Shown piece by piece: positions 25,301 to 63,278 of a stretch of 64,000 nucleotides of DNA. This DNA is from Liolophura sinensis (taxonomy: Eukaryota; Mollusca; Polyplacophora; Chitonida; Chitonidae), in NCBI RefSeq assembly GCF_032854445.1, contig NC_088304.1, positions 28,899,732 through 28,963,731 of the forward strand, written 5' to 3'. The notes under the pieces were generated by a model. It searched no databases, had not been told where the DNA came from, and saw only the letters and a program-made list of their open reading frames with translations. Both the position numbers and the translations under genes were made by a program. Every line of letters begins with the position of its first letter. The stretch's first letter is position 1.

Positions 25301-28300
25301 AAACTTCAGATACCTGACAAACACCTTGTATTTTTTGGGGTTCACCTGTTTTCTACCCATAAGTTTAATCTATATCTGTACAAACTATGTTAGGCATAGT
25401 ACTCAGGTCAAGTAAATAACAGAAAAAGTTTGATAGGGTGCGTTATGTCCTGTTTTACAGGTGACAGTTTTGAACCCCCGAGATGGTGTGATATCATTCG
25501 CTGGCACCACAACAGCCGACTCGGTGCAGATGAACCCATATCAGCCAATTATTGCTCTCAAAGGTACATCATTTAAATGTATTTATTTGATCGATGTTTT
25601 ACGCCATACTCAAGAATATTTCACTTACACTGTATATGACGGCTGCCAGCATTATGGTGGGACAAAGCCAGACAGAGCCTGGGGGAACTCACGACCATCC
25701 GCAGGTTTGTTGGAAGACCTTCCCATATACACCTGGAGGCTACAAAGGCCCCTTGAATGAATAGGCCAAGGAGGCCCCTGAATAGGCCTCTGGGGGCCCC
25801 CTGAGAGGACATGAGAGGCCCCTGAAGAGACCACGGAGGCCCCCTGATGAGGCCACAGAAGGTCCCTGAATAGGCCTTGGATGCCCCCTGAATAGGCCGA
25901 GGAGGCCCCCTGAATACACCATGGAGGCCACCTGACTTGAATGACTCATTTGGCACCTGTTTAGTAATAATGAAGCTTTTTCAAGTGTCTGATAAAGGGT
26001 TGAAATTTGCTCTGGACACTCTGCTGTCCACCAGCCATGAACAGTAAAACCTGACAGTCACCATATAAGTGAGAAAAATGTGCATGTGGATAAATTTCTG
26101 ATATGTGTGTTTCAGCTGGCCTGAGATTTGAAGTGTTTAACCTGGAAACCAAAGTTCTCATCAGCCAGACGAAAATGGTGGATTCAGTGATCTACTGGAC
26201 CTGGCTCAACTCTGATGTCGTCTCTATGGTTACAGAAACAGCTGTATATCACTGGGATTTGTGGCAGGGTATGCTTCCCTCTGTGAAAACTTTCTTTAAG
26301 AAAAAAAAAAAAGGTTTCTCACTGGTGTGGATCATTTGAAAGAGGTTTTGTTGAATTTAGTTTTAAATGTATGTTGTTTTACAGTAAGTCATTCATGTGA
26401 AAATGAAGGTATGTCCAGTTGCTCTGGCTTTTGTACTGCTTTTGTTGAGATAGCAAACCAAATATTTCATGTACTGATTTTGTTTTCCCTGTTTAGTATG
26501 GGGTTAGAGTTGATCAAGAGTGCATTGATGTTTAAATTACATGAAATTAATCATTTAGTCTCAAACTAAAGACTGAGTATTTATGACAACGGGCGAAAAA
26601 AGTTTCCCCGTGAATGTTTGGTTGTTGAAACCAATGAGACTTCCTTACATAGGTTTGTAATCTCTCCTCAGTTCTTAGTGCGGGAAAGGAGTGGCAAATT
26701 ACTAAGTTTATTTTTCTTTTTTCAGGTGACTCTCCTCCGGATCGTGTTTTCACACGACACTCGAGATTAGCATTCAGCGAGATCGTCAGTTATAAATCAG
26801 ATCCTTCGTTGAAGTGGCTAGCTCTGACAGGGCTGATACCTGAGGTAAGGCTAATTATCTCCCCTGCCCAGGTAGGATGACAGAAAACAGTAATATGTTC
26901 ATGATCATTCAACCACAGTCTGCAATTAATACTCCATTTAATTCCATATCTTAGTCCCGAACCTTCCGGGCCTGATTACCCTTGTCCCCCGAGACAACTC
27001 AAGATAAATTTCTGCTAGGTGCTGACTGATGAAATTTTTTACAAACCATCCCAGCCAGATGCCGGCGAAATAGGACTTACATTTGCTCAATGTTCATCCT
27101 AGTGTTTGTACCTAGACTGAAACTTTGAAACCTCAGCTAAAAAATGATACCACTTAACAAGCAGAAAAAAAGGCAGCTTAAAGATACAAAAGAATATATA
27201 TTGAAAAACAGCAGGAAATAACATTTGTCCCTCCTCCCCTGGAAGTATTGATTGTGGTGAACCATTTCTCATATTGCCCTCTGCTTTCAGCATGACCGTA
27301 TATCAGGGCTGACTCTGTTGTATAATATAGCAGAGTACACCACACGATCTATCAGCTCTCACTGTGTCAGCTTGTGTGAGAACCACTTGTCATATTGCCC
27401 TCTGCTTTCAGCATGACCGTATCTCAGGGCTGACTCTCTCACTGTGTCAGCTTGTGTGAGAACCACTTGTCATATTGCCTTCTGCTTTCAGCATGACCGT
27501 ATCTCAGGGCTGACTCAGCTGTATAATGTAGAAAAGTACACCACACGGTGTATCAGCTCTCACTGTGTCAACTTGTGTGAGAACCACTTGTCATATTGCC
27601 CTCTGCTTTCAGCATGACCATATCTCAGGGCTGACTCAGCTGTATAATATAGCAGAGTACACCACACGGTGTATCAGCTCTCACTGTGTCAACGTGTGTG
27701 AGAACCACTTCTCACATTGCCTTTTGCTTTCAGCATGACCATATCTCAGGGCTGACTCAGTTGTATAATGTAGAAAAGTACACCACACGGTGTATCAGCT
27801 CTCACTGTGTCAGCTTGTGTGAAAACCACTTCTCACATTGCCCTCTGCTTGCAGCATGACCATATCTCAGGGCTGACTCAGTTGTATAATGTAGAAAAGT
27901 ACACCACACAGTGTATCAGCTCTCACTGTGTCAGCTTGTGTGAGAACCACTTCTCACATTGCCCTCTGCTTGCAGCATGACCATATCTCAGGGCTGACTC
28001 AGTTGTATAATGTAGAAAAGTACACCACACGGTGTATCAGCTCTCACTGTGTCAACTTGTGTGAGAACCACTTCTCACATTGCCCTCTGCTTTCAGCATG
28101 ACCATATCTCAGGGCTGACTCAGCTGTATAATATAGCAGAGTACACCACACGGTGTATCAGCTCTCACTGTGTCAACTTGTGTGAGAACCACTTCTCACA
28201 TTGCCCTCTGCTTTCAGCATGACCGTATCTCAGGGCTGACTCAGCTCTATAATATAGCAGAGTACACCACACGGTGTATCAGCTCTCACTGTGTCAACTT

Positions 28301-31300
28301 GTGTGAGAACCACTTCTCACATTCCCCTCTGCTTTCAGCATGACCATATCTCAGGGCTGACTCAGTTGTATAATGTAGAAAAGTACACCACACGGTGTAT
28401 CAGCTCTCACTGTGTCAGCTTGTGTGAGAACCACTTCTCACATTGCCCTCTGCTTTCAGCATGACCGTATCTCAGGGCTGACTCAGTTGTATAATGTAGA
28501 AAAGTACACCACACGGTGTATCAGCTCTCACTGTGTCAGCTTGTGTGAGAACCACTTCTCACATTGCCCTCTGCTTTCAGCATGACCGTATCTCAGGGCT
28601 GACTCAGTTGTATAATGTAGAAAAGTACACCACACGGTGTATCAGCTCTCACTGTATCAGCTTGTGTGAGAACCACTTCTCACATTGCCTTTTGCTTTCA
28701 GCATGACCGTATCTCAGGGCTGACTCAGCTGTATAATGTAGAAGAGGACATCACACAGTGTATCAGTTCTCACTCCGTAACTTTCTCACAGTACCACTTC
28801 ATGGAGAATGTCCTGTCGTCCACAGTCATGTGTGTGGCCTCCAGAGATCTGCAGGACCATGGCAAGGTGAGCCCAGATAAATCTCTCCCTCATTACAGTG
28901 CTGTTGTTGGGGAACAAATCTGCCTACAGTGTTTAAAGTGAAGCCCTTTAATAAATAATAAGCATGATTCTGGGTGTCAAAAATATAGAAAATCAGGGTT
29001 CGTTCATATTCACTGAAACTTAGAGATTGTGTCATAGGGTTATATTGAAGTGCATGTTGTGGTGGATCATGTTGTATTGAGGGAGAGGTGTATGCAATAA
29101 GTTTGAAAAAAGTGGTAGCAGTTTTAATTGTTGTATTTTGGAAATGTCTCATGGAGCCTTAGATTTAAAGTTGGTGGTTTGGGAAAGTTTGTTGCTTAAA
29201 CTCCCCTTTAAAGGATCTAAGAAGTATTTGTATTGATGTTAGAGGGTGTGAAGTGGTGTCTAGCATAGTAGTCAGACAGCATCCATGATGTGTAAGGAAA
29301 TACCATTGTCATGTACATAACTAAAATAATGCTCAAGAGTAACAAACCATGCTAATACTCCTGATTAAGTCTCAGTCTCTTATGCCTAGGATTTAATCCC
29401 CCATGGGGTAGTGCTTATAATATTTAAACCCCACTACATTAATACCCAAGATTTAATCAGCATAGGCATATAATGCCTAAGATTTATTCACTATTGGGGT
29501 AATGCTTAAGATTTAATCTCCGTTGGGGTAATGCTAAAGATTTATTCACTATTGGGGTAATACCTAAGATTTAATCACTATTGGAATAATGCCTAAGATT
29601 TATTCACTGTTGGGGTAATACCTAAGATTTATTCACTATTGGAATAATGCCTAAGATTTATTCACTATTGGGGTAATGCCTAAATTTAATCACTATTGGA
29701 ATAATGCCAAAGATTTATTCACTATTGGAATAATGCCTAAGATTTAATCACTATTGGAATAACACCTAAGATTTATTCACTATTGGAATAATGCCTAAGA
29801 TTTAGTCACCATTGGGGTAATGCCTGTGATTTTATTGCTATTGTGGTAATACTATTGGAGTAATGCCTGAGATTTAATCACTATTGGGGTAATTCTTAAG
29901 ATTTAATCACTATCGAGGTAATACCTAAGATTTAGTCCCTGAAGGAATAATGACAAAGGTTTACTCCTTATTGGCGTAATGCCTAAGATTTAAACCCCAG
30001 TGAGGTTATGCCTAAGATTTATTAAATCCCCAGTGAGGTAATACCTAAGATTTATTTCCCAATGAGGTAATGTCTTTCAGCATTTAACCTGCATAGGCAT
30101 ATAATGCCTAGGATTTAATCCGCTAAGGGATAATGCCTAAGATTTAATCTTCAATGTTGTAATGCCTGTTATTTAACCTGCAGTGAGCTATTGCCTAAGA
30201 TATTACCCAATTAGTGTACTGTAATTCTTCAGCCTTTTGGCATGTTTACAAGGTGTTTATTCAGACATATTCTGGAGGTATTATTTTGTGTAGACCAATA
30301 AAATTATACTTTTTGTGAAGCCCCAAAATTGGCCAATCGGACTAATGTAGTTCTGTCTACAAAATCAAATTATGAATGTGCATAAATTGCACTAAAAGTT
30401 GCTCTTTCATATGCAAACAGGTTGAGGAATTAATGTAGTGCTAAAGAATTACTCTGCAATTGGGTAATGGCGAAGGTTTAATCCCCAGTGGGAATGTTTC
30501 AGGCTCATGCCCCATTGGGTAATGTGTAAGATTCAATCCTCCAGTGGGATAGTGTTTAAGATTTAATCCCCTGTGATGGAAAGCCCAGAATTTGACAACT
30601 AGTGGTGTAATGTGTAAGATTTACTCCCCAGTGATGGAATGTCTAAAGTTTTCTCCTCAGTGCATGCTGTGTTGATAATTGTACAAATTCGTAAAGGATA
30701 AGAGGACAGCACCCTGTTATAAATAATGATACATGCACAATTTTTTGCCTCTATTTCAGACTTATGTGATAGAGCTTGGTCCGTACAAGCAGGGAAACTT
30801 TGCCCCACGTAGCAGTTACGATCACATTCAGTATTACGATGACACGGACAGATATGACTTCCCAGTCTCTATACAGGTTAGTACATGTATGCTAGCTCAC
30901 TTTATGTATTGTTTTATTTATTTGATTGGTGTTTTACGTCGGAGTCAAGAATATTTGACTTATACGATGGCGTACAGCATTATTGTGGGAGGATACTCAG
31001 GATTAAATCTCAGTGAGGTTATGCCTAACATTTAATCCCCCACGGGGCAGTGCTTTTCAGATTTAATCCCCATGGGGGTAATGCCTAAGATTTAATCAGC
31101 ATAGGCATATAATGCCTAAGATTTAATCCCCATTGGGGTAATGCCTAAGATTTAAACAGCATAGGCATATAATGCCTAAGATTTAATCCCCATTTGGGTA
31201 ATGCCTAAGATTTAATGAGCATAGGCATATAATGCCCAAGATTTAATCCCCATTTGGGTAATGCCTAAGATTTAATGAGCATAGGCATATAATGCCTAAG

Positions 31301-33471
31301 ATTTAATCACTATTGGGGTAATGCCTAAGATTTAATCACTATTGGGGTAATGCCTAAGATTTAATCACTATTGGGGTAATGCCTAAGATTTAATCACTAT
31401 TGAGTTAAGAATGGTAACACCAGCAGACAGCTAATGTGGCACTGGCTCTCTGTAACTGTCAGGCCCTTGACCAGTGATGTTGGGAGTTCATATCCAGCTC
31501 TTGCTGTTTGACAGTGGCTTGTAGCCTGAAGATTGTCATGTACCTGCTGAACTGCCAAGTTCTCCACAGTTAAGCCTGACCTCTGTATGAACTGTCTTTT
31601 AATATAAGAGAATCATTTATGAAATGTTGTCAATTCTTAGTGAAAAGTAAAGATGGATTTTTCTTGAGACTTACTGTAGCGCTTTTTGCGATGAGTGTCT
31701 GTGAAAGGAAAGCTTTGTGATCTTGATGCCCATGAAGATATGAGTTATATGTTCGAGGTTTCATAACATCTGGTTATCTCCCTTTTTAGGTGAGCACAGA
31801 GTACGGACTGTTTTATGTGGTGACAAAGTACGGCTACATGTACGTGTGTGACATGGAGACAGCTGCATGTCTGTGCATCTCCCGGGTGTCGCACTGCGTC
31901 GTCTTCTGTCTGGCTCTCAACTCCAAGACCCAGGGCATTATAGGGGTGAACCGAGATGGACAGGTGAGTCGGTGGACGACATGGCAGTATTTTTTTTATG
32001 TATCTATTCATTTCATTGGTGTTTTACGCCATAGTCGAGAATATTTCACTTACACGACGGCAACCAGCATTATTGTGGGAGGAAACAGGGCAGAGCGTAG
32101 TGGAAACCCACGACCATCTGCAGGTTTTCTGTCAGACCAGAGAGGAAGCCAGCATGAACTGGATATTAGAACATCCACATTGTTGAGAGGCTTGAGGGTC
32201 ATTGTACTGTACCAGCACACTAACCCCCTAGCCACACATGCCCTGACGTGGAACTGTCCCTCGAAACTTTACAGCTTGTTGAGTGGATATATTCTAACTG
32301 AGGAGTGAGGTTGATACCTCATATCTAGGTCCTCTACCCTTTTACGCCGATCCTGGACTTTTTGTGGGTGAGGTCCCTTGTGGCTCAGATGGTTAAGGCA
32401 CTGGCATTGTGCATTTATAAGACTCTTGACAAATGTGTTTAAATAAAACTCTAGCTGTTTTGGCTACATTTTGTTTGGCCCGCTTTTCCTTATTCTGAGA
32501 GTTCTATTGATTTTAGAAAGGTGTTCTGAGGTTTGCTTGGAACATGGGATAATATTCTACTGGAGAATTGTGAGTTTCGGCACTGAAAATTATATTTTGT
32601 GGTATTTTCTGATAATGCACTTCTACGGGCAAAGTTATAGGTCATTTAGGGTACTTGGGGCCCTCCTGTTTCTCCCGCCTACACGTATAAACTGGACCAT
32701 TGTCATTTAAATGAAAAATTTAAATTCATGAGTCAGTGTATCAAATAAGCAATTAATCTTTTCTGGTCACATTTCTTCAAAAATAACGTAATGGTAAAGA
32801 TAAAGTAAAGTCGTAAGCACCAGACAAACTTCTGACCCACATTGGTCAAACGACTGAAGTCATAAAGTGCAAATCCTTAAAAAGCCAAGCTCAGAACAAG
32901 ACAGGACTCAAATTGTGGGCAGTACATTGTTCTGTGGTAAGCAATCTGTGCACAAACTCTACATGTAAACTGTTCAGACTGAAACATTTTTGTTGTAGCT
33001 GTGTTTGAATGTTTGACTTAAGTCTTAACACGTTTGATAAATACAAGCCCAGGTTTTTATTTTTTTTTTTTTTACTTTTCTTGAATAGAATTAAGTGTAC
33101 ATGTATGATATGTGCATGTGTTATATTTACAGGTATGATATGTACATATGTTATGTTTACAGGTGTGATATGTACACATGATATTTACAGGTATGATATG
33201 CACATGTGCTATATTTACAGGTATGATATGTACATGTTTGATATTTACATGTTTGATTCATGATAAAGAAAGTAGAGAAGTTGTTGTATGACTGTAATTA
33301 TCACAATTAACACAGTGCATCTGTATTCTTTGGCTCCAGGTCCTTACTGTGAACATCAAGAAAGACGGATTTCTGACTTGTGTTCGCGAGACCGGCAGAA
33401 AGAAAAGTCAGGCAAAGCGGTTGGAGAAAGCAATGACCAACCACAGCAAAGACCGCGAAGGGCCATCTTAA
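10393..33471 (+). CDS. Clathrin heavy-chain N-terminal propeller-only protein (nine coding exons)
   Basis: Exons: 10393-10518, 24819-24941, 25461-25563, 26116-26268, 26726-26844, 28702-28866, 30760-30876, 31790-31963, 33340-33471. All junctions are GT/AG and phases agree, giving 403 residues. Homology to the clathrin heavy-chain terminal domain is clear throughout: LSHIGVSP, ETAVYHWDLW, KWLALTGLIPE, DFPVSIQVSTEYGLFYVVTK, KTQGIIGVNRDGQ. The protein ends just after the last propeller blade with a basic tail (RKKSQAKRLEK) and TAA. The linker, leg and trimerisation regions of a normal chain (about 1,675 residues) are absent, and I saw no such exons to 42 kb. An extra leader of about 26 residues precedes the propeller. 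It lacks a signal peptide or membrane segment, so it is probably cytosolic. The role is inferred: binding of adaptor peptides without lattice assembly. Homology confidence is high; gene completeness is less certain. An out-of-frame upstream ORF of 7 codons lies at 10364-10387. Confidence 0.9.
11812..12745. repeat. 28-bp minisatellite in intron 1
   Basis: About 33 copies of a unit like 'gctggctggtcacatttctg' followed by 'acatcagg'. One G-rich interruption occurs at 11979-11999. Longer blocks are themselves repeated. Lies in intron 1 of the clathrin-like gene, before the 79-bp array. Confidence 0.95.
12975..13215 (+). repeat. Dispersed repeat D2 (intron 1 copy)
   Basis: 'aagtcataaattgcaagtgc', 'caaattgtgggtggtacatt', 'gtagctgtgtttgaattt' and 'gtttaataaatgtgggccc' recur in the same order at 32845-33055 in intron 8 of the same gene. 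Confidence 0.75.
14895..15135 (+). mobile_element. Old SINE (family 1) in clathrin-like intron 1
   Basis: Head-like 'gggcttggtggttaacaagc', body with 'agcaacctgcgaattggcg' and tail 'agtgaaatattcttgagtat' followed by 'aataaataaac'. Many substitutions. Confidence 0.8.
16695..16805 (-). mobile_element. Truncated SINE (family 1)
   Basis: Tail of TTTA repeats, then 'gactggtgtttcacacagca' and 'accagcattatggtggga'. The head is missing. Confidence 0.82.
17078..17202 (+). mobile_element. Truncated SINE (family 1) next to the 79-bp array
   Basis: Body from 'gtcgtgggtttccctcgggc' to 'agtgaaatattcttgagtac' with the tail 'aagtaaataaataaat'. The head is missing. Confidence 0.86.
17360..23925. repeat. 79-bp satellite array, about 83 copies
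   Basis: A head-to-tail array in intron 1 of the clathrin-like gene. The unit contains 'ggtgtgtggaaggtgaagca', 'cacctgtag', 'ttacaggctgttcatgtc' and 'gctacatgtac'. Spacing of 'tacggtgtgtgg' is 79 bp. Units differ at a few fixed positions (gtatta / gcatta / gcctta; tgtccgag / tgtctgag / tgtacgag; ctc / cac / atg after agca). Blocks of variants recur 16 units apart (see findings). Short frames inside are artefacts of the repeat. Confidence 0.97.
25578..25744 (-). mobile_element. Truncated SINE (family 1) in clathrin-like intron 3
   Basis: Contains 'ttttacgccatactcaagaa', 'gccagcattatggtggga' and 'accatccgcaggtttgttgg'. The head end is replaced by the 22-bp minisatellite. Confidence 0.86.
25745..25940. 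repeat. 22-bp GC-rich minisatellite in intron 3
   Basis: The 'cctga' core recurs at 25778, 25801, 25822, 25844, 25866, 25888, 25910 and 25932, i.e. a 22-bp period with 'aggcc' blocks. It abuts a truncated SINE on its left. It generates long low-complexity frames on the minus strand that I do not regard as genes. Confidence 0.9.
27255..28701 (+). repeat. 121-bp array made of exon 6 acceptor plus 5' half of exon 6
   Basis: Twelve tandem copies precede true exon 6. The exon-like part starts (catgacc) at 27291, 27412, 27492, 27613, 27734, 27855, 27976, 28097, 28218, 28339, 28460 and 28581, then the real exon at 28702. Spacing is 121 bp except one shortened unit of 80 bp. Each copy has about 20 bp of 3' intron (ctctgctttcag or cttgcag) and about 100 bp matching the exon start (HDRISGLTQLYNVE), but no donor. 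Reading through any copy reaches TGA at the next copy's 'gcatga'. Confidence 0.96.
29385..30640. repeat. 29-bp minisatellite in intron 6
   Basis: Units of the type 'aatgcctaagatttaatcac' plus 'tattggggt', about 29 bp, some degenerate, interrupted at 30215-30440 by a dispersed repeat. The same family reappears beyond exon 7. Confidence 0.93.
30215..30440 (-). repeat. Dispersed repeat D1 inside the intron 6 minisatellite
   Basis: Reverse copy of the repeat at 40-125 plus 606-702, here uninterrupted: 'gtaattcttcagccttttgg', 'ttcagacatattctggagg', 'ttgctctttcatatgcaaac'. The 29-bp array continues on both sides. Confidence 0.8.
30906..30995 (-). mobile_element. Truncated SINE (family 1) in intron 7
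   Basis: Tail and start of the body only ('tttgattggtgttttacgtc', 'cagcattattgtgggagg'). It ends exactly where the 29-bp array starts. Confidence 0.82.
30996..31410. repeat. 29/31-bp minisatellite in intron 7
   Basis: Same family as in intron 6. It starts directly after a truncated SINE. Here two unit types alternate (with 'cagcataggcatat' or 'ccccattggggt') to give a 60-bp double unit. Later units are of the plain 29-bp type. Confidence 0.93.
31995..32232 (-). mobile_element. Near full-length SINE (family 1) in intron 8
   Basis: Contains 'ttcattggtgttttacgcca', 'accagcattattgtgggagg', 'agaggaagccagcatgaac' and head remnants at 'accagcacactaacccccta'. Confidence 0.86.
32845..33055 (+). repeat. 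Dispersed repeat D2 (intron 8 copy)
   Basis: 'aagtcataaagtgcaaatcc', 'caaattgtgggcagtacatt', 'gtagctgtgtttgaatgttt' and 'tttgataaatacaagccc' match the intron 1 copy. Confidence 0.75.
33095..33258 (+). repeat. About 29-bp tandem repeat with 'tttacaggta' core in intron 8
   Basis: Five or so units of 'gtatgatatgtacatg' followed by 'ttatatttacag', just upstream of exon 9 of the clathrin-like gene. Each junction reads as a splice acceptor touching a donor. Confidence 0.88.
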
Positions 33472-41290: not shown

Positions 41291-41669
41291 TTCTACATGT
41301 TTCTTTGGTCAATGAAAACTCATTTTCTTCATGGAATATTTTTTTAGATACTTGATATTTATTAACTTAATAGATGACTATCAGCAGCTTGTGCATAAAC
41401 ACCTCTGTGGAAAAACTGAATAGTGAGACGTTGTATATGGGAATGGATTCCCATTCGAGATATTTATCCCATACATGTGGATTCTTGTCTGTTGGAGATA
41501 CAGTTATACATGTACAATAATCACCTTCAGACAAAGCTAACATGTGACAACACACACGTGCTTAGCATTTTTCACTTCTGGCTTAGTTCAGGCAGATTTC
41601 ACTGTTTGTGCCTGGATTAATGCACCGATACCACCATGACCACTGTCCATCTTCCAGGGTACTGTGACT

Positions 41670-41748
41670 AGGCTGTTTTACGCTGTGCTGAAGAATATTT
41701 CACATATACAAAGGCAGCCAGCATAATGGTGGGAGACCTACATGTATG
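41670..41748 (-). mobile_element. SINE (family 1) fragment
   Basis: About 80 bp with 'gctgttttacgctgtgctga', 'gaatatttcacatataca' and 'agccagcataatggtggga'. Confidence 0.75.
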
Positions 41749-42059
41749 ACATTCGCCATCTGCAGTGTCAGCGTGTCAAGTTCTGTCACTTTTCCCGTGC
41801 GATGGCTCTTCAAGCCCAGGACCTGTAATATCATCCTTCAGGAACAGCCTGATAAGAACTGTTTGTGTAGTGTCTCACTCGTCATTTCCTTGTGTTGTGG
41901 AGTATACACCCGGAGCATGGATGTCTCACTCAACAGCCTTGACCACAGCTCTGATGTGGCTGTCCCAATTTCCAGGTCCCTTGTACATCAGATTGGATGA
42001 GTGAAATGGAAAACCCTAACTAGTAGATACAAATGTGAATATTTCCACCAAAAGTTGAT

Positions 42060-42500
42060 CTACAGAAGGATCCATTTACTCATGTCAGTGTCCATTTCCC
42101 ATGGCTGGGCTATAGAGCAACATTTCCATCAACAGTAAATCTGGATGATCATGCCTGTGTCACTGTCCATTTTCCAGGGAACGGACATGCCACTATGGTT
42201 TTACTACCAGGATCTGTAACATGGATATTTCCATGAACAGTAAACCTGGATGATCACGCCTGTGTCACTGTCCATTTTCCAGGGCCTAGATATGTCACTA
42301 TGGTTTTACTACCAGGATCTGTAACATGGATATGTCCATTAGGAGTAAATCTGTATGATCACGCCAGTGTCACTGTCCATTTTCCAGGGCCTGGATATGC
42401 CAATATGGTTTTACTACCAGGATCTGTAAGTAACATGGCTATTTCCATCAGCAGTAAACCTGGATGATAACACCTGTGTCACTGTCCATTTTCCAGGGCC
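42060..42500. repeat. 105-bp array overlapping the MED21 stop codon
   Basis: The motif 'cactgtccattttccaggg' occurs at about 42161, 42266, 42371 and, inside the last MED21 exon, at 42479. A degenerate copy lies at about 42089 and another at 41638. Between them run near-identical stretches containing 'ttttactaccaggatctgta' and 'aacctggatgatcacgcc'. On the minus strand the shared motif is the final coding segment (LENGQ-stop). Confidence 0.9.
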
Positions 42501-45500
42501 TGACTTTGGAGCTGTGCCTGGGCAATGGCATGAAGGGCCTGTTCTATCTGCTGCAGTAATGCCTCTCCCTTCTCCACCACGTTCTCTAGCTTCTTAGCAG
42601 CTTCCTGGTTCTCAATTTCTAACTGCCGCAAACTGGCCATCTAAAAACAAAATGGAAAAGACTAGAGACTCAATGCTGGAATAAGCCTGTTCTCAGAGAT
42701 CCAGTGACCAAAGGCAAAGATTTATCCCCTGGGGTCCACCAGAATTGTTCCTGATTACAGAGTGTATAGTGGGACCACAGGGGAGTTTGGAGTTTAAACT
42801 CTTTTGTCCCTAAAGGTAAAAACACGTATAGTCCTTCTGTATCATGTGACCTGTCACAAAGAATATGCAACTATTTTCGATACCAAAACAAGGGCCCCTG
42901 AAACCTAGACAAACGATGGAGAAGATTGAAGAGCTGAGCATTCGTCAACTTGAGAATTTTTTGAAGGAAAATGGAGTCATTTTTCCGTTTGTGTATCCAG
43001 AAAACAACAAGACAGGTGATCGGTATATCAATGTCAACAAAAGTTGCCTAACAATTCTGACAGGTCATATGATGCAAGTCAATTTTTACCCTTACTGAGA
43101 AAAGAGTTTGCTCTGGAAACTTCCCTGCTGGATCCATCTTTATCCCTGTTTTGTGGATAATCTAAAGCACAGGCTGTGTACATATGAAAACATTTAGGGG
43201 TGAGTTACATGTACACACACACCATTAGGCTTTACGAAAATCAACACTGGTGTTTACATACAATGTACCAAATACATGGGCAATATAAACACAGCCACCA
43301 TTCCATCGCATTCACATTAAAAATTAAATCGAATCAAGAGGAAATATTTACTGAGAACTGAAAAATTTTCCACTGTTATACTTTATATTTTATTTTGTTG
43401 AAGCAGCTAGTGTGATGGAAGCATGATGCAAATGGCATACATGTAGTTATACCAACTTTCAGAAGAGTGGAGGTCATAAGAGTTTTTTGTTTTACCATCA
43501 CACTGCCCTTGCACAGGCCCCTGTGGGACACCACCTCACCTGTAATTCTGGAGAAGACTCCTCACTGGGCAGGGAATCGATCAACACATCAACATCTTTG
43601 GCACACCGTGCTATCAACTTGGCAAACAATGCAGCATAATCTAGAAAAAAATTTACAGCTATTTTCAATACCAAGATGTCTATGTTATTGTGACGACTCC
43701 ATAATCTTCCATAAAAATCCCCATTACTTTTACTGACATAAAAGTTCGTCCAGAAAAGTTATGTTTTACAGGCAAATAAAAGTCACAGAATATTACTTTT
43801 GGTGTTGAAATAAATTTTTTCCAGTAGGGTATTATTCTACCTTTGAAACAAACCTACAAATGCATTTTCAAGTTCAACACATGTGTAACTCTCAGAATCA
43901 GGAAAAATGAGCAACTACCATCAACAGTGAAGTTTCAACCCTGAAATAACTATTACGAGACCAGAGAAAATATTAGCTACCAAACCAGATGCTGATGGGA
44001 TTGGCTCTTTTGATGAGAGTCCACCAGACTCCACTTACATGCAGTGAATAACTTATTCATGGCAGATCTTAATGCAAGACCAAACTGCTACAAGGCACAT
44101 TTTTTTTTCTTTATTTTTACATTTTTTTTCTAGTCAGTGTCAAAATTATAGGTCATCCACAGTATATCAAAATTTGGTGAACTCTGAAAAAAAAAAAGCA
44201 AAGGTTCCTCAGTGATAGTTCAATGAAATAAATCACATCATCGATTCTCAAAAACAGCTGCATCAGTGTTCCTTTGAACTTTATAATTTGGCAAAAAAAG
44301 GGTTCAGGTGACCTTGAAAGAAACGGCTGTCTTCTAGGGTTATAGAAATAACTTATTCTTGAACAGCTAAAATCACATTATATCATAAGATGACATGATG
44401 ACATGGTGAATTTCCTCAGTGTACATGATTTGCTAACCTTGCACTGCAATATCTCAGTTACGCAACGAAAACAAAAACAGACAGTTAATTATGCCTTTCT
44501 ACACTATGTGCAATATGCATACCATAACGCCTCTATAACCTCAGATGCATTTTCAGAAATCATATTCCATAGCGCCTTGCGAGGGCTGTTGTCTTAAAGT
44601 CACACACTCTCTGTGGCGACTAAAGGATTACCGGTATTCGATCAGTGACAGCTGTCCACACCCCCGTCACGCTTCAGTGAGCCTCACCAGCCTGGCAAAG
44701 TTGGGAGAGAGGAGACAGATTGCCAGGGTTTTTAAGGGTTCACTTTTTGTGCCATTAAACGGTTGTATGAGGCAGAGATGGATTTGATGTTGTGATGAAT
44801 GTCAAGATGTAAAAGAAGAAAAACAATGATGTCGATGGAGCTGGACTAAGCATATGTTTGTAACGACCGGCATTTCGGCCCACATCAATGCTATATGCCT
44901 ACAAGTCCTGCATTTGGCACAATCAACATTTGCACCCTTTGATGAGTATGTGAAGTGGCCAGCGAATAACCAGTTCCTTCACTTTTGAGTCCATTATTAT
45001 CACAACATGTGGTGTGGGTCAGCTGAGAGTTGGGGGTTAGAGCCAAAAGTAGATGTTGTCTCATGAAAATCACTTTACACGGGACATGTCTATTTTTCAA
45101 ATTACTTCAAGGAAAATACTAAAATACTTCGCAAACGTCAAATGCAGTAAGAGGGAGATATTTTGGACAGAAATCCGTAAATAACACAGAGTAGAAGCGT
45201 TGCTAACCCGTGGTGACTTTACTTGATGGACACAACTGATACTGTGAGCCAGGGGCCGGTATCATAAAGCTTACTTAGCTAAATGAACTTTATATCTCTA
45301 CACCATAAGTTGTCATGGTAGTTAAGGGCTTACTTAGCCAAGTGAGCTTTATGAAACCGGCCCCGTCCCATGTCAGGTGTTGGACACTCCTGCTGATCAA
45401 GCCCTGCTTCCCGTCCCAAGTCAGGCATTGGACACTCCTGCTGATCAAGTCCTGCTGATCAATCCCTGCTGATCATTCCCTGATTCCCGTGAAGGTAAGG

Positions 45501-51885: not shown

Positions 51886-52077
51886 ACAAGGAAATAACTT
51901 TCTGGAATATGAGTGAATCGCGAACAGTTCAGTGCAGATCACTTGTTGATGACCGGGACTAGAGTGAAGATCTTCCCACTTTCTTTACTGCTGTTTGTTT
52001 TTTTATGTTCATTGAACGTCTCCCCATTCCTTTTTAACCAATGAAAAATCAATAAAAGCATGTGACGGTGGGAAAAA

Positions 52078-52904: not shown

Positions 52905-54314
52905 ATGCGTTACGTGGCCGCATATTTGCTTGCGACCCTCGGGGGTAATGCCAGTCCATCTAACAAAGACATCGAGAAGATTCTAGGGAGCGTGGGAATT
53001 GATGTGGAAGCTGACAAGGTTAAGAAGGTGATCGACGAGTTGAAGGGAAAGTCCATTGAACAAGTCATTGCTGAAGGTAACTAGCTCAATAAATGTGAGA
53101 CACAATATAAACTAATTTTAACCGGTGTACATGTACTTAAGTTTTCAGAGTTGGGAAGTATTTCTGGTTAGAAATTTCTTTGTTGGAATTAGATTTCATT
53201 TTCTTTTCACCCCTATGTCTAGAAATTCCTTGTTGAAAGACACTTTCTTGGTCATTTTAAATGGTGTAGTTTTCAGAGTTAGGAAGTACTTTGATGAGAA
53301 ATTTCCCTTTAGGTTTGTGATTTCATTTTTAGTCCACCCGTATATTTACAAATTAGTGATATTTCAGCTGTTATACTGTTCAGTTAGGAAGATAAATTCT
53401 GCATATTGTCATTTGAATGATTGAATGAATGATTATGGTTTAAAGCCACATCGGCAATATTTCAGCCATATGGTGGCGACCATTTGAATTCGGTGGTTTC
53501 AGCTGTGAAATTATTTTTTGTTTTTTTGTGTTAAGCCGAAGTCAGAACAAACATACATGTATACATAGGAACATAAAGGTTGTATGGTAAGGTTTTGTAC
53601 TAAAACTTTCTGTACAAATTCTGACCGTGTTTACTATATTGACCTTTGCCTCACTCCTTGCAGGCGAGAAAAAGTTGGCTTCTGTGCCATCAGGAGGTGC
53701 TGTAGCTGCAGGAGGTGCCGCCCCAGCTGCAGGTGGTGGTGGAGGTGCCGCACCAGAAGGTGAGGCTCAAAAATGTCAAGCAGATTGGAATTTGCAGCAG
53801 AATTATCTTGTGATCGTGCAATTAAGTTTAGTTCAAGCTCTGTGTCATCCACTCGTAAACCTTGCCACCGTAATGGAAGTGGAAAATTTTAAGGGTGGCC
53901 AGACCCAAGAGCCTCTCACAAATGCAGTCGCTGTGAGTTCAGATCTAGCTCATGCTGGCTTGCATTTCGCTCAGAAGTGGGAAGGTTTTCCAGCTACCTG
54001 CGGCTGGTCCTGTTTCCTCCCACTATAATACAGCCTGTCGTATAAGTAGAATATTCTAGAACAGTGTTAAACTCCAGTCAGATAAATTAATCAAGAACAG
54101 TGTTTTATGACCTTAATATGACTTCAAATGCCTTCAAAAATGGACTGTATCAGACTGATGCAGCCATCTCTGACTTATAAGGGACGTATAGAAATGAAAG
54201 GTGTTAAGCAATCAACATTAATTGCCTTATGTTTTTACAGCCAAGAAAGAAGAGAAGAAGGAAGAGCCTGAAGAGGAGTCTGATGACGACATGGGATTCG
54301 GGCTGTTTGACTAA
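52905..54314 (+). CDS. RPLP2: 60S acidic ribosomal protein P2 (three coding exons)
   Basis: Coding exons 52905-53076, 53664-53759 and 54241-54314 join in frame to give 113 residues (human 115). The start MRYVAAYLLATLGGN and the helical segment to residue 58 form the P1/P2 dimerisation domain. Exon 2 is the Ala/Gly-rich hinge (AAGGAAPAAGGGGGAAPE). Exon 3 is the acidic tail ending SDDDMGFGLFD, which recruits translation GTPases to the ribosomal stalk. The ATG sits one base after a good 3' splice site (tttcccag), so an upstream non-coding exon is expected, as is usual for RPLP2. A SINE lies in the last intron, and a poly(A) signal candidate ATTAAA follows at 54348. A frameshifted paralogous exon lies 9 kb downstream. 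The gene looks functional. Confidence 0.97.
53425..53490. mobile_element. Short interspersed repeat fragment in RPLP2 intron 1
   Basis: 'gtttaaagccacatcggcaa' followed by 'tatttcagccatatggtggc' resembles the end of another common molluscan short element. Single copy in the window, so family assignment is by recall only. Confidence 0.5.
53890..54095 (+). mobile_element. SINE (family 1) in RPLP2 intron 2
   Basis: Contains the B-box region 'ctgtgagttcagatctagct', then 'gaagtgggaaggttttccag', 'ctcccactataatacagcc' and a degenerate tail. The A-box end is weak. Confidence 0.83.
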
Positions 54315-54347
54315 CCTCTCTCAGCTCCTCTTTTGTTAAACAGGATG

Positions 54348-54353
54348 ATTAAA
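54348..54353 (+). promoter_or_regulatory. Candidate RPLP2 poly(A) signal
   Basis: ATTAAA occurs 34 bp after the stop codon, consistent with the short 3' UTRs of ribosomal protein mRNAs. Confidence 0.55.
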
Positions 54354-54499
54354 CAAGTCAAATTCTGAACTCTGCTGAAAATGGCTGCCTTTTGTTGAGT
54401 TTCTGTAATATCACATTTGAAAAATGGAGCACATTTGACACGATGAATGTAGCCTGTCCACCAGCAATATAATGGTTGTCTCTCAGGGCCACTTATGGT

Positions 54500-54625
54500 T
54501 TCCTTTTCGGTCATAATGGGAAGGTCTGCCAGCAACCTGCGGAGGGTCATGCCCGGTTTTCTCCAACCATAATGCTGGACGCCATAGTTTCAGTGAAATA
54601 TTCTTGACCAATCAAATAAATCCCA
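54500..54625 (+). mobile_element. Truncated SINE (family 1) downstream of RPLP2
   Basis: Contains 'gggaaggtctgccagcaacc', 'ccataatgctggacgcca' and 'cagtgaaatattcttgacca'. The head is missing. Confidence 0.82.
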
Positions 54626-54929
54626 GGGCCACTTTGGCCAAACTTTACGATTGGGTTTACGAAGCCGGTTGTGACTGAGGGGTTAGGGTGCTTCCCCTCT
54701 CATTTGGAGAGAGGGGAGGAGCACGGCCTGGTTGCAAGAAGAGGTAGATGGTGTTAACTCCAGTGTGGTGATGCCTGGAACTTCCTGGAGACCACTTGGT
54801 TCTTGCTATGATATGAAAGTTAGGCGCAAATTTCTTCAGAACTTCGCCAAAAGGCAGGTAAACTTTAAGCTTTGAAAATTGTGTCAATGCTGCTAAGTTG
54901 TTTTCGTCAAGTTGTTGAAAGGCTGTTGA

Positions 54930-55065
54930 AAAATGATGCCTGTTTGCTACTGAGCACTGAAAGGATAGAGCAAGGACACAGGACTGTTTGGCCTGGTGTC
55001 AGTATAGTGTGGGGTGTCGTGTTTGGTGTCTGCGTCATTATACCTCAGTGGCGACAGCATGGAGG
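54930..55065 (+). mobile_element. SINE fragment (third family)
   Basis: Contains 'ctgagcactgaaaggatag', 'cctggtgtcagtatagtgtg' and 'cattatacctcagtggcgac', the reverse of the copy at 59155. Confidence 0.72.
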
Positions 55066-55804
55066 TGAATACAATATACATGTACACAGATAATGACTCC
55101 CATGTCTGAAAAATTACCACAAACAATACCCAAAGCATACATTGGAACAACAAATTGCAAGCATGTAAAGGCGAGCTTACACGTACAATACAGATGTGTT
55201 GAGGCTGAACATCTGGCTCACGTTGAGAAACACCGATGCAGACAACAGCGGAAGGCATATTTATACATCAGAAATGAATAAATTATTCTGAAAAAAAGTA
55301 AAGGTGTTACAATATTGGATGTAATAGTATACCTAATTCCTAAATTAACGTCAGAACAAAGATTACTGATCTAGGTATAGGCTTCTTCGAATTGGTAGAT
55401 TTCAGATTTTTTTTGTTTTAAGATTTGAAAAACAATCTAATGATTTCAGTGATCCTAATGTCATTTCAAGGTTAGGTAAGATATTTTCAGACTATCTTGA
55501 GAAAATATCCTGTAATGATCGTAATTATGCTTCTTTAAGCACCTTAATGAAACATTCACATTGTCATGTTAATCAATAAAGATCATAATTAACACCTAGA
55601 GTGCCACAGTAAATGATTTACATGTAGGCGTACGTGTAGGGCCTAGATTCAAATATCTGCTGCAGAATGTATCTGTAATGCCACTTGAGAATTTCGTTGA
55701 AAAAGTTAGATTTGTTAAACTGAAGTCGTCCACTTCATACATTACATGCAGCTGTTCGATCTCACTTCAAATATAAGCCTATAACATGCAACATGACCAA
55801 GTTA

Positions 55805-55940
55805 AAACTTGAAGTTCAAATCTCGCCCGTACATGAGAAGGTCTGCAGCAACCTACACTTTCTTCCCACCATAATGCTGGCGGCTGTCGTAAAAGTGAAA
55901 TATTCTTGAATACGGCGTAAAACACCAATTAAATAAAGTC
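55805..55940 (+). mobile_element. SINE (family 1), internally deleted
   Basis: B-box-like 'gaagttcaaatctcgcccg' followed at once by 'cagcaacctacactttcttc', 'ccataatgctggcggctgtc' and a tail 'accaattaaataaa'. Confidence 0.84.
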
Positions 55941-56684
55941 TCGCGTTAATTCTGTGATACTAAAACACTGATTTGATTTTCTATCATCCTCTGATGGAGT
56001 TATTTCCCCTTGACCCCAGTACGCGTTGCACAGCGTTGAGTAAGGCCACATTTCATGCCCACTGAAGCCCATCTCTATACCCTGCCATGTATTAATGACA
56101 ACAGCGATAAGACTATAAGCTTGCTGGGACTTGTGCAAGAGAGGGATATAGCTCACTATAAATGCAGTTGTCCTGGACTGGCGTTCAGTTAGAACAGACC
56201 AGTTGGTACCCGGCTGTATTACTAGACTGTATATAGCGCAGACTGACCTTGGCCTGGTGGATATCGATTTATATTTTGGGATCCATTAATCCCTGATCAG
56301 GTAAGATATAGACCTATGAGGTGTCATCTAGCAATTTTCATTGGTGAGGATCCTGTGAACAAAAGTCTGGAAACGAGACTGGCTACAGGGACTATATTTT
56401 TCTGTTGTATTGGCCTGTAGACGAGCAGATGCCGGCATTGCAAGACGTGTGGAACACTGGCCTGTAGTAGTCTACATGCTCTGTACCGTTATCGATTGGC
56501 GGCCATAACACCAGCGTGTTCTGTCAGACCGGCACAGTGTGGCATCTTCAATACCGTACCTTGCTTAAGGTGAGGACCGTATATACTACGGTACTACCGC
56601 AAAGACAACCGGCAACGATTTGTATATCATGCATCCAGCACTAATGCGCATATATGCCAACATAAGATGAACAGTTTGAATCAC
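55941..56684. other. Unassigned sequence left of the 98-bp satellite
   Basis: A minus-strand frame of 75 codons at 55929-56156 has no domain I recognise. Otherwise nothing to report. Confidence 0.4.
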
Positions 56685-58632
56685 ACCCATATTATGTACG
56701 TGCATGCCAAGATAAGATGTACAATTTGAATCCAACCCACGTATTAATGACTACACTACAGTAGCCTGAAGTAGCTACATATATATGGATTATGTACGTG
56801 CATGCCAAGATAAGATGTACAGTTTGAATCCAACCCACGTATTCATGACTACACTACAGTAGCCTGAAGTAGCTACATATATATGGATTATGTACGTGCA
56901 TGCCAAGATAAGATGTACAGTTTGAATCCAACCCACGTATTAATGACTATACTACAGCACTTTGAAGTAGCTACATATATATGGATTATGTACGTGCATG
57001 CCAAGATAAGATGTACAGTTTGAATCCAACCCACATATTCATGACTACACTACAGTAGCCTGAAGTAGCTACATATATATGGATTATGTATGTGCATGCC
57101 AAGATAAGATGTACAGTTTGAATCCAACCCACGTATTAATGACTATACTACAGCACTTTGAAGTAGCTACATATATATGGATTATGTACGTGCATGCCAA
57201 GATAAGATGTACAGTTTGAATCCAACCCACATATTCATGACTACACTACAGTAGCCTGAAGTAGCTACATATATATGGATTATGTATGTGCATGCCAAGA
57301 TAAGATGTACAGTTTGAATCCAACCCACGTATTCATGACTACACTACAGTAGCCTGAAGTAGCTACATATATATGGATTATGTACGTGCATGCCAAGATA
57401 ATATGTACAGTTTGAATCCAACCCACGTATTCATGACTACACTACAGTAGCCTGAAGTAGCTACATATATATGGATTATGTACGTGCATGCCAAGATAAG
57501 ATGTACAGTTTGAATCCAACCCACGTATTAATGACTATACTACAGCACTGTGAAGTAGCTACATATATATGGATTATGTACGTGCATGCCAAGATAAGAT
57601 GTACAGTTTGAATCCAACCCACGTATTCATGACTACACTACAGTAGCCTGAAGTAGCTACATATATATGGATTATGTATGTGCATGCCAAGATAAGATGT
57701 ACAGTTTGAATCCAACCCACGTATTCATGACTATACTACAGCAGCCTGAAGTAGCTACATATATATGGATTATGTACGTGCATGCCAAGATAAGATGTAC
57801 AATTTGAATCCAACCCACGTATTCATGACTATACTACAGCAGTCTGAACTAGCTACATATATATGGATTATGTACGTGCATGCCAAGATAAGATGTACAG
57901 TTTGAATCCAACCCACGTATTCATGACTATACTACAGCAGTCTGAAGTAGCTACATATATATGGATTATGTACGTGCATGCCAAGATAAGATGTACAGTT
58001 TGAATCCAACCCACGTATTCATGACTATACTACAGCAGTCTGAAGTAGCTACATATATATGGATTATGTACGTGCATGCCAAGATAAGATGTACAGTTTG
58101 AATCCAACCCACGTATTCATGACTATACTACAGCAGTCTGAAGTAGCTACATATATATGGATTATGTACGTGCATGCCAAGATAAGATGTACAATTTGAA
58201 TCCAACCCACGTATTCATGACTATACTACAGCAGTCTGAACTAGCTACATATATATGGATTATGTACGTGCATGCCAAGATAAGATGTACAGTTTGAATC
58301 CAACCCACGTATTCATGACTATACTACAGCAGTCTGAAGTAGCTACATATATATGGATTATGTACGTGCATGCCAAGATAATATGTACAGTTTGAATCCA
58401 ACCCACGTATTAATGACTATACTACAGCAGTCTGAAGTAGCTACATATATATGGATTATGTACGTGCATGCCAAGATAAGATGTACAGTTTGAATCCAAC
58501 CCACGTATTCATGACTATACTACAGCAGTCTGAAGCAGCTACATATATATGGATTATGTACGTGCATGCCAAGATAAGATGTACAGTTTGAATCCAACCC
58601 GCGTATTCATAACTATACTACAGTAGCCTGCA
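56685..58632. repeat. 98-bp satellite array, about 20 copies
   Basis: Units start at 'atggattatgtacgtgcatg' (56785, 56883, 56981 and so on, spacing 98) and contain 'gatgtacagtttgaatccaa', 'cccacgtattcatgactac' and 'gtagctacatatat'. Two main variants occur: 'actacagtagcctg' mainly in the left half and 'actacagcagtctg' in the right half. Confidence 0.96.
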
Positions 58633-60394
58633 AGGCATGCAAACTCCCATTGATGCATGTAGGCTACGTGTATATATAGGCCTAAGACTGCAAGACATCA
58701 ATATTTTGCAAGTAAGCTTATTGGCCTGGAAATCAATGACCCCCTAAGTTTCAGTGTTATTTTGGACGAAATTCGATAATAGGCGTAATTAATTATTGAT
58801 AATATCGCTCTAATAGAACTCTGGCCAAACGATCACAAATGTGTCTTAGACACAACGCAGACCTAATCTTGTGATATTTTTACTGAACTTAGATTTTAAC
58901 TTAAACTCAAGTTTTCGCCACGGAAAACCCTAAGTATTTAAACTCTTCAGGTGATTCGCAGTTTTATAGCGCAGTACACTTTTGAAGTTACGACCAAGTC
59001 TGACATCAGCCAGTTGTCTTGTAAATAAAGTCCAAAATGGCCAAGATTACCTGCTGAATTTACACATTTAAGTTTCTAATGTGCCCTCTGCGTCTCAAAT
59101 GAACAATTTCCAGATGGACCCATATAACAACAGCCTATACCTTTGTCTAGAATCTGTGTGCTCAAATGACATCCCGTGACACCCCACCAATCACATTATA
59201 GTGACACCGGGCCAATCAGTTCTGTTTCCTTGCTCTAACCTCTCAGTGCTGAGCACCAATTATGATCGGAAGCTGTCACATTTTGATAGGAATGTTAAGC
59301 CCCATGCATGTAACATACACCAACATATACCTACATGTACATTGCCAATGGCTCTATAGACTTTTATCTTCATGTATATACCTAGCTTTTATAACTTCAG
59401 TATTGACGGTAAAATTGGTTGATTTTTTTATTTACTTTTTGTTTTGCGCTTTACACAAAAAAGTTATACACCCAGGGTCACATGCAGCCAATTTTTCAAA
59501 CCCCCACAACCACAATGCCTCTCCACCTTGGTATCTAAAGCTACAGTCTGGTTGACATAAACTTTTACTGAAAGGCGCGATATGGATTCGAACGAGCGAC
59601 TCAGGGCTTGTTCCTGGTATCTCAATCTAATAAGAGTGGTGCAAAATCTGGCGTGGTATGAGCAGATGACGTTATATACTAATACATTGGAACAAGGAAC
59701 TATAAAAAGATTTTAAAAACTATACATTCGCGGATATAGAAGTGGAGTTATAGTATCGTGGCTCACATGCAGATATTATGTATTATGTCCAGTCTGTATA
59801 ATATACCAGCTAAATGCCACGTATATACCATATGCCGCATTGCCGCACTGAAACACGTAGAAAAATGCGTAGAAAGCATGCCATCTTCTGCTTTGTTATT
59901 GCGGGAGAAAGCACTACGGAGAACACTCCAATGAGTTCTGCAGATCATTCTATCTTCAGGAGCACTTTATTTACCCAGGTGGGTGTAAACCTAGATGCAC
60001 GTGCCATCACCTGGAGGTACACCCGCACCGGCTCTGAGGTATATACCAGAGGTATCGGATACCGGGACAGCTGACTGCATGTTTTGGAACACACATGGAT
60101 GGAATGGTGTGCTGTAGAGTAGCATGCGGATAACACTGTATAAGTGTTACCCCACTTTTTATAACCTCACCTTCCTTCTCATACATACCTATGCGTGAAA
60201 TATACATGTATACGACTATAGGCAAAACTGGTGGTTCATCTAGTAAGCTACCATTTCTGGTTACACATCTTGTAAAGCTTGACCGTAGTTGCCTCGCAAA
60301 ATCATCGCCCCACGCATCATGCCTGCAAGACGATAGCCTTCACTATGTGTATGTATCATTGTGTAATTTTACGACGTACTTGGTCATATGATGA
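58633..60394. other. Unassigned sequence right of the 98-bp satellite
   Basis: Apart from the SINE fragment at 59155 and a reversed B-box-like 'ggattcgaacgagcgac' at about 59584, no gene or element is recognised. Confidence 0.45.
59155..59265 (-). mobile_element. SINE fragment (third family)
   Basis: Contains 'cgtgacaccccaccaatcac', 'tagtgacaccgggccaatca' and 'cctctcagtgctgagcacc', matching the element at 54930 on the opposite strand. Confidence 0.75.
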
Positions 60395-60665
60395 CAAGAA
60401 GTCATTAAGGGTGTGTAGGCCTATAAATGTTGTGCCTGCTTGTGGCAGGTGGAGTCCATGTCCCCAAAGTGCTGCCGCCATTGAAGTATCATGACGAAGA
60501 CACTCCAACACTCCAGTCACACTGTACTGACATCGAGCCAAACATTCTTGTTTCTTTGTTCTATGACCTCTCGGTGCTGATCGCCAAGCCAAGTAGCAGA
60601 AAGTGCCTGCCTTAAAATCTTTGGTATGACCCGACTCGAGTTTGATCCAAGATCTCCCGACTTCG
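60395..60665 (-). mobile_element. SINE of a third family, minus orientation
   Basis: Contains 'cactgtactgacatcgagcc', 'tctcggtgctgatcgccaag' and the head-proximal 'ggtatgacccgactcgagtt'. Similar blocks occur at 41120, 54930 and 59155. Joined head to tail with the family 2 copy. Confidence 0.75.
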
Positions 60666-60675
60666 TAAATTATTG

Positions 60676-61011
60676 TAGTGAGTGAGTGCTTTGGGTTTAA
60701 CGCCGTACTTAACACTCATATGACGACGAAAGAATCCTTAGAGTACATGTAGTGTGCCTGCTTGTTGCAGGACAGATTTCCACCGCTCTTTAGCTAGTTT
60801 GTGGTATCGAGTGCTGCTTCACTGTGACGCTTTACCGAAGGCAAGTAAGGCGCCCCGCCTGAGACATTATGCCTAAACGGATCGTTGCACTTTCTCCTTC
60901 ATGCTGAACGCCAAACTTTCAAGGTCTTAGGTGTGACTCGACCCAGGATTGACTCTGGATCTACCGCTCCCAAAGCGGACGCTCTACCAACTGTGCTTTC
61001 GGAGCCGGTCA
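60676..61011 (-). mobile_element. tRNA-derived SINE (family 2), full length
   Basis: On the minus strand it starts with a clear tRNA-like head ('gcacagttggtagagcgtcc', then 'cgctttgggagcggtagatc' and a B box in 'ccagagtcaatcctgggtcg'). The plus-strand end reads 'gtgagtgctttgggtttaac' and 'cgccgtacttaacactcata', an unrelated body from family 1. Apparently complete. Confidence 0.87.
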
Positions 61012-61204
61012 AATTAATATGCCTTTCAGTGGTATGTAAATGGAGTAAATGGAGGTATATGTAAATGGAGTGAAACACTTCACTAAATGTGATGAAGTCA
61101 TGAAAGATTTTCTCACCTGTTTTGTTACATGCAAAACATCTAAAACAAGATTAACTGTTCTGTGTCTTCATATGTCCATGATATAGAAGTGTATATATAA
61201 CAAA

Positions 61205-63106
61205 GCAAGGTCACATGCAGATACAGTGACCTGCATCTTTCCCATTTTCTGTGACTCGCATCTGATGTGTATCAGTATGCTGTACATTGCTTCGCGTCTT
61301 TCCTATAAGGGTATAGTTTTTCTGTGACTCATCGCACCTGATGTGTATCAGTATGCTGTACATTGCTTCGCGTCTTTCCCATAAGGGTATAGTTTGTCTG
61401 TGACCCATGGCTCCTGATGTGTATCAGTATGCTGTACATTGCTTTGCGTCTTTCCCATAAGGGTATAGTTTGTCTGTGACCCATGGCTCCTGATGTGTAT
61501 CAGTATGCTGTACATTGCTTTGCGTCTTTCCCATAAGGGTATAGTTTTTTCTATGACTCATCGCACCTGATGTGTATCAGTATGCTGTACATTGCTTCGC
61601 ATCTTTTCCATAACGGTATAGTTTTTCTGTGACCCGTCGCACCTGATGTGTGTCAGTATGCTGTACATTGCTTCACGTCTTTCCCATAAGGGTATAGTTT
61701 TTCTGTGACCCATTGCACCTGATGTGTATCAGTAAGCTGTACATTGCTTCGCGTCTTTTCCATAAGGGTATAGTTTTTTCTGTGACCCATCGCACCTGAT
61801 GTGTATCAGTATGCTGTACATTGCTTCGCGTCTTTCCCATAAGGGTATAGTTTTTCTGTGACCCATGGCTCCTGATGTGTATCAGTATGCTGTACATTGC
61901 TTCACGTCTTTCCCATAAGGGTATAGTTTTTCTTTGACCCATCGCACCTGATGTGTATCAGTATGCCGTACATTGCTTTGCGTCTTTCCCCATAAGGGTA
62001 TAGTTTTTCTGTGACCCATCGCACCTGATGTGTATCAGTATGCTGTACATTGCTTTGCGTCTTTCCCCATAAGGGTATAGTTTTTCTGTGACCCATTGCA
62101 CCTGATGTGTATCAGTAAGCTGTACATTGCTTCGCGTCTTTTCCATAAGGGTATAGTTTTTCTGTGACTCATGGCTCCTGATGTGTATCAGTAAGCTGTA
62201 CATTGCTTTGCGTCTTTCCCCATAAGGGTATAGTTTTTCTGTGACCCATTGCACCTGATGTGTATCAGTAAGCTGTACATTGCTTCGCGTCTTTTCCATA
62301 AGGGTATAGTTTTTCTGTGACTCATGGCTCCTGATGTGTATCAGTATGCTGTACATTGCTTTGCGTCTTTCCCCATAAGGGTATAGTTTTTCTTTGACCC
62401 ATTGCACCTGATGTGCATCAGTAAGCTGTACATTGCTTCGCGTCTTTTCCATAAGGGTATAGTTTTTCTGTGACCCATTGCACCTGATGTGTATCAGTAA
62501 GCTGTACATTGCTTTGCGTCTTTCCCCATAAGGGTATAGTTTTTCTGTGACCCATCGCACCTGATGTGTGTCAGTATGCTGTACATTGCTTCGCGTCTTT
62601 CCCATAAGGGTATAGTTTTTCCATGACCCATTGCTCCTGATGTGTATCAGTATGCTGTACATTGCTTCGCGTCTTTCCCATAAGGGTATAGTTTTTCTGT
62701 GACCCATGGCTTATGCTGTGTATCAGTATGCTGTACATTGCTTCGCGTCTTTCCAGGTAACGGTATAGTTTTTCTATGACCCATTGCTCCTGATGTGTAT
62801 CAGTATGTGGTACATTGCTTCGCGTCTTTCCCATAAGGGTATAGTTTTTCCACGACATACACCGTTTTTCAGTATTATGTACATTGCTTCACGTCTTTCA
62901 CATAAGGGTACGATACTTTATGACTCACGGTGATTGGTGTTTTTCGGTATGCGGTACATTGCTTCACGTCTTTCCTATAAGGGTACGGTACATTACTTTA
63001 TGCCTCACTGTGACGTGTTTTTCAGTATGCGGGTTCATTACTTCACGTCTTTCCCATAAGGGTACGGGATTTTACTTTATGACTTACTGTGACTGGTGTT
63101 TTTCAG
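61205..63106 (+). repeat. 76-bp satellite array, about 25 copies, running into RPLP2-like exon
   Basis: Spacing of 'tgatgtg' is 76 bp (61263, 61339, 61415, 61491). The unit contains 'gtgtatcagtatgctgtaca', 'ttgcttcgcgtctttcccat' and 'aagggtatagtttttctgtg'. The last three to four units diverge towards 'gtttttcagtatgcggtaca', which is exactly the acceptor and start of the exon at 63107. A 249-codon minus-strand frame here is a by-product of the repeat. Confidence 0.95.
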
Positions 63107-63278
63107 TATGCGGTACATTGCTGCCTACGTTTTGGCCGTCATGGGAGGTAACCCATCTCCGACAGCTGAAGACATCCGAACCATTGTCAGCAGTGTTGGA
63201 ATAGACATCGACGAATCTAGACTGAACAAAGTCATCAGTGAGCTCGGGGAAAAGATCTGGAAGAGTTGATAGCGCAAG
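63107..63278 (+). pseudogene. RPLP2-like first coding exon, divergent and frameshifted
   Basis: A pyrimidine-rich acceptor (gtgtttttcag) is followed by one base and an ATG at 63108, the same arrangement as in RPLP2. The frame reads MRYIAAYVLAVMGGN and continues with VGIDIDESRLNKVISELGE, clearly a P2 N-terminal domain but only about half identical to the copy at 52905. The coding part is 171 nt against 172 nt in the intact gene. One base is missing near 63247-63254 (run of G and A), so the frame hits TGA soon after. In the neighbouring frame LEELIAQ follows and leads to a good donor (caag, then gtaagt). It keeps intron borders, so it arose by DNA duplication, not retroposition. No hinge or tail exon is seen up to 64000; these may lie outside. 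It is either a pseudogene or carries a sequencing error. Confidence 0.8.

Follow-up and report, generated by a model that had tools for sequence, protein, structure and literature searches.

Tandem arrays across splice sites in a chiton genome match the mirages of amphioxus genes

Tandem repeats across exon-intron boundaries are known as mirages, a name given to them in the amphioxus gene Adh3, as recounted in PMC3087553. The amphioxus globin gene BflGb6 has a mirage made up of the 3' end of an intron and the 5' part of the following exon; the unit is 150-160 bp long and is present in 6 or 3 copies, depending on the haplotype (PMC3087553). A mirage in a second globin gene, BflGb9, lies on the donor side (PMC3087553). 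Discussion of these structures has covered normal splicing, unstable length, homogenisation of the interior that leaves out the boundaries, and a connection with intron gain (PMC3087553), and mirages in the TnC and PGBD5 genes of amphioxus were added later (PMC3902484). A human counterpart is the 31-bp VNTR of CBS, which covers c.1444_1467+7 in 16-21 repeats (PMC2630376) at the boundary of exon 13 and intron 13 (PMC1395315).

Arrays that match the amphioxus mirages are found in the chiton Liolophura sinensis: two of them, A1 and A3, lie in the window, and seven more were found in a sample of the genome. The window is the whole stretch of DNA analysed, 64 kb of contig C10 (C10:28,899,732-28,963,731) in an assembly of 609 Mb and 632 contigs; positions are counted from its first base. 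An earlier note on this stretch had described arrays at exon edges in three genes (clathrin-like, MED21 and RPLP2-like) and placed all three in one class. All three arrays are real: Tandem Repeats Finder calls them at the positions given in the note. Alignment confirms A1 and A3 as splice-edge arrays; the MED21 array, A2, is found at a stop codon.

Array A1 belongs to a clathrin-like gene:

24819-31966, plus strand: divergent clathrin heavy chain paralog (N-terminal propeller), exons 1-7 recognised
26727-26844, plus strand: exon 4 of the clathrin-like gene
27252-28774, plus strand: array A1, 121-bp unit, 12 decoy copies and the authentic copy (tandem-repeat call and alignment)
28702-28866, plus strand: authentic exon 5, HDRISGLTQLYNVEEDITQCISSHSVTFSQYHFMENV..., which is the exon-proximal copy of A1; the donor gtgagc comes next

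The canonical clathrin heavy chain gene is probably located elsewhere, at C10:16.047 Mb. Recognisable exons of the paralog in the 64-kb window reach no further than about residue 325 of the human protein. Direct alignment shows that 22 nt of intron end, the acceptor and approximately 99 nt of the exon start make up the A1 unit; the donor of exon 4 must join past 12 decoy acceptors. The authentic copy is 0.84 identical to the other copies, and copies in the middle of the array are about 0.94 identical. Similarity between the array and the authentic exon is 0.95 over the first 42 exonic nt and 0.75 over the remainder. One copy has been shortened to 80 bp (an 80-bp deletion variant); in one haploid assembly, such variants bear only indirectly on whether A1 may be unstable in length. 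At the founding junction of A1, intron and exon share a microhomology, ACCAYTTC; it is suggestive, though too degraded to serve as proof.

Array A3 lies in the second of two neighbouring genes, canonical RPLP2 and an RPLP2-like gene:

52905-54315, plus strand: canonical RPLP2, three coding exons
61245-63122, plus strand: array A3, 76-bp unit, about 24 copies, in intron 1 of the RPLP2-like gene
63107-63279, plus strand: authentic exon of the RPLP2-like gene, ATG at 63108

In direct alignment, the acceptor, a T and the ATGCGGTACATTGCT of the second RPLP2-like gene form the end of the A3 unit, and about 24 copies of cagTATGCnGTACATTGCT precede the authentic exon at 63107. The four units nearest the exon are 0.71-0.76 identical, compared with about 0.89 in mid-array. 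Canonical RPLP2 provides a contrast within the window, with an array at none of its edges. A frame-breaking deletion of one base lies in a G run near 63250, in the first coding exon of the RPLP2-like gene; either a HiFi homopolymer error or a recent pseudogene may account for it. The later exons lie beyond the window (locus L028, 2036-2978), look intact and end in GMGLFDM*.

Array A2 is found at the end of MED21:

42122-42503, minus strand: array A2, 105-bp unit, 3.6 copies
42479-42640, minus strand: terminal coding exon of MED21, stop TGA at 42481-42479

The first unit of A2 holds the last 24 coding nt of MED21 and the stop codon, and the other copies are 3' of the stop (direct alignment), where they repeat the CAGGCCCTGGAAAATGGACAGTGA of MED21 (minus strand). 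This stop codon is internal to the terminal exon, so A2 does not lie at an exon border; it is a coding-end/3'UTR array and not a splice-edge array, which leaves only A1 and A3 in the splice-edge class. Farther 3', at 41640-42109, there are older, degenerate copies of the MED21 end motif CCTGGAAAATGGACAGTG, one of them beside a SINE-like stretch. These copies suggest the trace of an older, longer array, from which the MED21 C-terminus itself may have been taken.

All three arrays are head-to-tail, minisatellite-like repeats of unique local sequence. Units span an exon-intron boundary in A1, A3 and seven sample loci, and do not in A2. Identity by position in A1 and A3 indicates concerted evolution inside the cluster, from which the boundary copies are excluded. 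Chance alignment is ruled out by a match of 71-95% between copies over 76-121 bp. The arrays are also highly unlikely to be assembly artefacts in the form of collapsed or mis-joined repeats, an error that the earlier note had allowed for. The 1-base G-run deletion in the RPLP2-like exon is of the usual HiFi error type and would fit such an origin; however, divergence among the copies (5-30%) is structured, with homogenised centres and diverged ends, and a like anatomy recurs at unrelated loci. In addition, the HiFi reads of the published chiton assembly (Liolophura japonica; mean 8.3 kb, 14x, with Omni-C; PMC11068029) are on average longer than each array.

The frequency of such arrays was determined in 183 kb of the genome, made up of 47 stretches that surround exons for the myosin head, kinesin or clathrin and were chosen regardless of repeats. 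These stretches contain 132 exons, 92 found by profile or protein search and 40 by tblastn among the loci, and 14% of the sample is in arrays. An edge-spanning array was counted only if its unit held at least 9 exonic nt. A splice site lies inside a tandem unit at 7 of the 132 exons (5.3%; 95% interval 2.6-10.5%):

L039_L046: two donor-spanning arrays, 31-bp and 66-bp units
L042: donor-spanning array, 140-bp unit
L077: donor-spanning array, 73-bp unit
L059_L068: donor-spanning array, 125-bp unit
L048: acceptor-spanning array, 32-bp unit
L064: acceptor-spanning array, 64-bp unit

Exon-edge arrays thus occur genome-wide in the chiton, at about one sampled exon in 20, and the suggestion that local amplification can take in exon edges is borne out. 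The largest exon-edge duplication of the sample is at L042 (204-866), where the 3' half of a myosin exon and its donor are repeated several times in 140/267-bp units. Three other candidates were not counted. A further array at L064 (519-591) has only 4 exonic nt. L088 and L062 were at first flagged as exon overlaps; the real donor appears to be upstream of the array in L088, and in L062 the array appears to end at the acceptor. The L062 array (2013-3194) has a 27-bp unit in about 44 copies with an acceptor-like motif in each, and the exon at which it apparently ends encodes kinesin.

Arrays take up 24% of the 64-kb window (Tandem Repeats Finder, period at least 20, score at least 100). Exons of the window were listed by their similarity to proteins, and over the first 24 kb this list is incomplete. 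With circular shifts, an average of 7.3 of the 30 recognised exon edges fall within arrays, against 3 seen; the probability of at least three edges is 0.90, and that of at least three genes is 0.33. Two splice-edge cases among the 15 window exons do not stand out against the sample rate of 7/132 (P = 0.19). Taking all three cases against the same rate gives P = 0.04, but the window was picked because of them. The coincidence of arrays in three genes, which had been thought notable, therefore needs no special cause. The largest array of the window, at 17361-23919, covers 6.6 kb with 83 copies of a 79-bp unit; the unit holds an acceptor-like and a reverse donor-like motif, and no exon was recognised at the array ends.

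It is a separate question whether exon-intron boundaries are preferred birthplaces of arrays, so that exon-edge arrays exceed chance. Co-transcriptional R-loops, splice-coupled pausing or slippage-favouring AG/GT motifs are examples of what might cause such a preference. The answer depends on the null. If a single duplicated unit is placed at random, 3.0-3.6 edge-spanning arrays are expected among the 132 exons compared with the 7 seen (P 0.03-0.07); for the first 92 exons, the expectation is 2.1-2.8 (P 0.006-0.024). Several more arrays end no more than 60 bp from an exon. On the other hand, significance is slight with the fuller exon set, and whole arrays placed at random without swallowing an exon predict 12.5 edge overlaps, which is above the number seen. 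The unit-origin null is the fairer of the two. Array ends in exons are also roughly proportional to exon length, and the tests rest on a small sample of few gene families (two, plus clathrin). An excess over the unit-origin null is possible and at most weak. A preference for boundaries, with any of the causes named, is considered unlikely. The same low standing applies to its fuller form, in which chiton minisatellites arise by preference at splice junctions, with about twice the expected number of edge arrays and a continuing source of decoy splice sites; if true, this source could give rise to new introns or exons.

Splice motifs are largely intact in the decoy copies. AG is kept in 12/12 decoys of A1 and 23/24 of A3; GT is kept in 16/16 and 14/14 decoys at L039 and in 19/20 at L077, with L059 (0/3) as the exception. 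Decoy splice scores are near that of the authentic site in most arrays. The copies could accordingly be thought functional, as alternative or mutually exclusive exons or as a splicing regulatory device, and the A1 copies do still resemble the exon at the protein level. Several observations nevertheless make this quite improbable. The A1 units have no matching donor, and their differences from the exon are mostly amino-acid changing, as expected of non-coding copies. For most units the length is not divisible by 3. With each decoy tested, where the frame could be followed, translation would soon run into an in-frame stop (A3, with copies before or at the ATG, was outside this test), which leaves the exon-nearest copy as the only one able to make protein.

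A search of the 609-Mb genome found no second copy of any unit. Each unit is present at its own locus only; therefore each array grew from its own locus. The earlier note had also proposed transposon-linked or rolling-circle amplification. Capture of exon edges by a mobile element or rolling-circle product would leave units dispersed or within an element, which is not what is seen; no evidence in its favour was found, and the single-locus units contradict it, so that such an origin is very improbable. The best explanation, with a probability of about 0.85, is that the arrays are ordinary, locally born minisatellites whose founding duplication straddled a splice site (A1 and A3) or a coding end (A2). 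The same figure covers the explanation as a whole, including the view that the clustering in the window reflects a minisatellite-dense genome and not a special local process.

Such arrays could have arisen as follows. A segment of 30-270 bp across an exon edge would be duplicated in tandem through slippage, template switching or unequal exchange. Its copies have then multiplied and been homogenised, a step shown by variant copies, by deletion variants and by the homogenised centre of the arrays. One complete exon would be kept at the array end while the rest of the copies, as non-coding intron or UTR, are free to drift, and the arrays described here bear this out in part. Exon definition would presumably select the copy nearest the exon, as the decoys would have no partner splice site at an exon-like distance; mis-spliced products may be cleared by nonsense-mediated decay.

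Mirages, described in amphioxus genes, have been put forward as material from which introns may be gained. Their presence in a mollusc, at about 5% of sampled exons, suggests that they are a general by-product of minisatellite-rich genomes. It should also be noted that gene predictions in such genomes may mis-place exon ends. The main value of the chiton arrays lies in a rate measured in a distant phylum and in natural tests of splice-site choice, that is, of how the spliceosome passes over splice sites that are present by the dozen and nearly identical.

The earlier note knew of no named system of this kind; amphioxus mirages are such a system, and two others are related. Intron gain by tandem genomic duplication (the Rogers model; PMC4974935, PMC2891723, PMC2812944) shares local duplication which copies splice signals, but the chiton copies are inside an existing intron or UTR. 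The human CBS VNTR has a unit of 24 coding nt and 7 intron nt and is donor-spanning, like the arrays at L039_L046 and L077; it differs in being one human locus that is variable in length. No earlier report of mirages in molluscs was found in the open literature, although absence there is not proof. With the amphioxus mirages, the chiton arrays share tandem repeats over an intron-exon boundary (acceptor or donor), units that range from tens of bp up to about 160 bp, splice signals (AG/GT) in many of the copies, and a homogenised interior with diverged boundary copies (A1 and A3; PMC3087553). Authentic splicing is presumed to be intact in both. They differ in that the chiton arrays are those of a mollusc, that A2 is at a stop codon of MED21 and not at a splice site, and that a rate, about 5% of sampled exons, has been measured for them.
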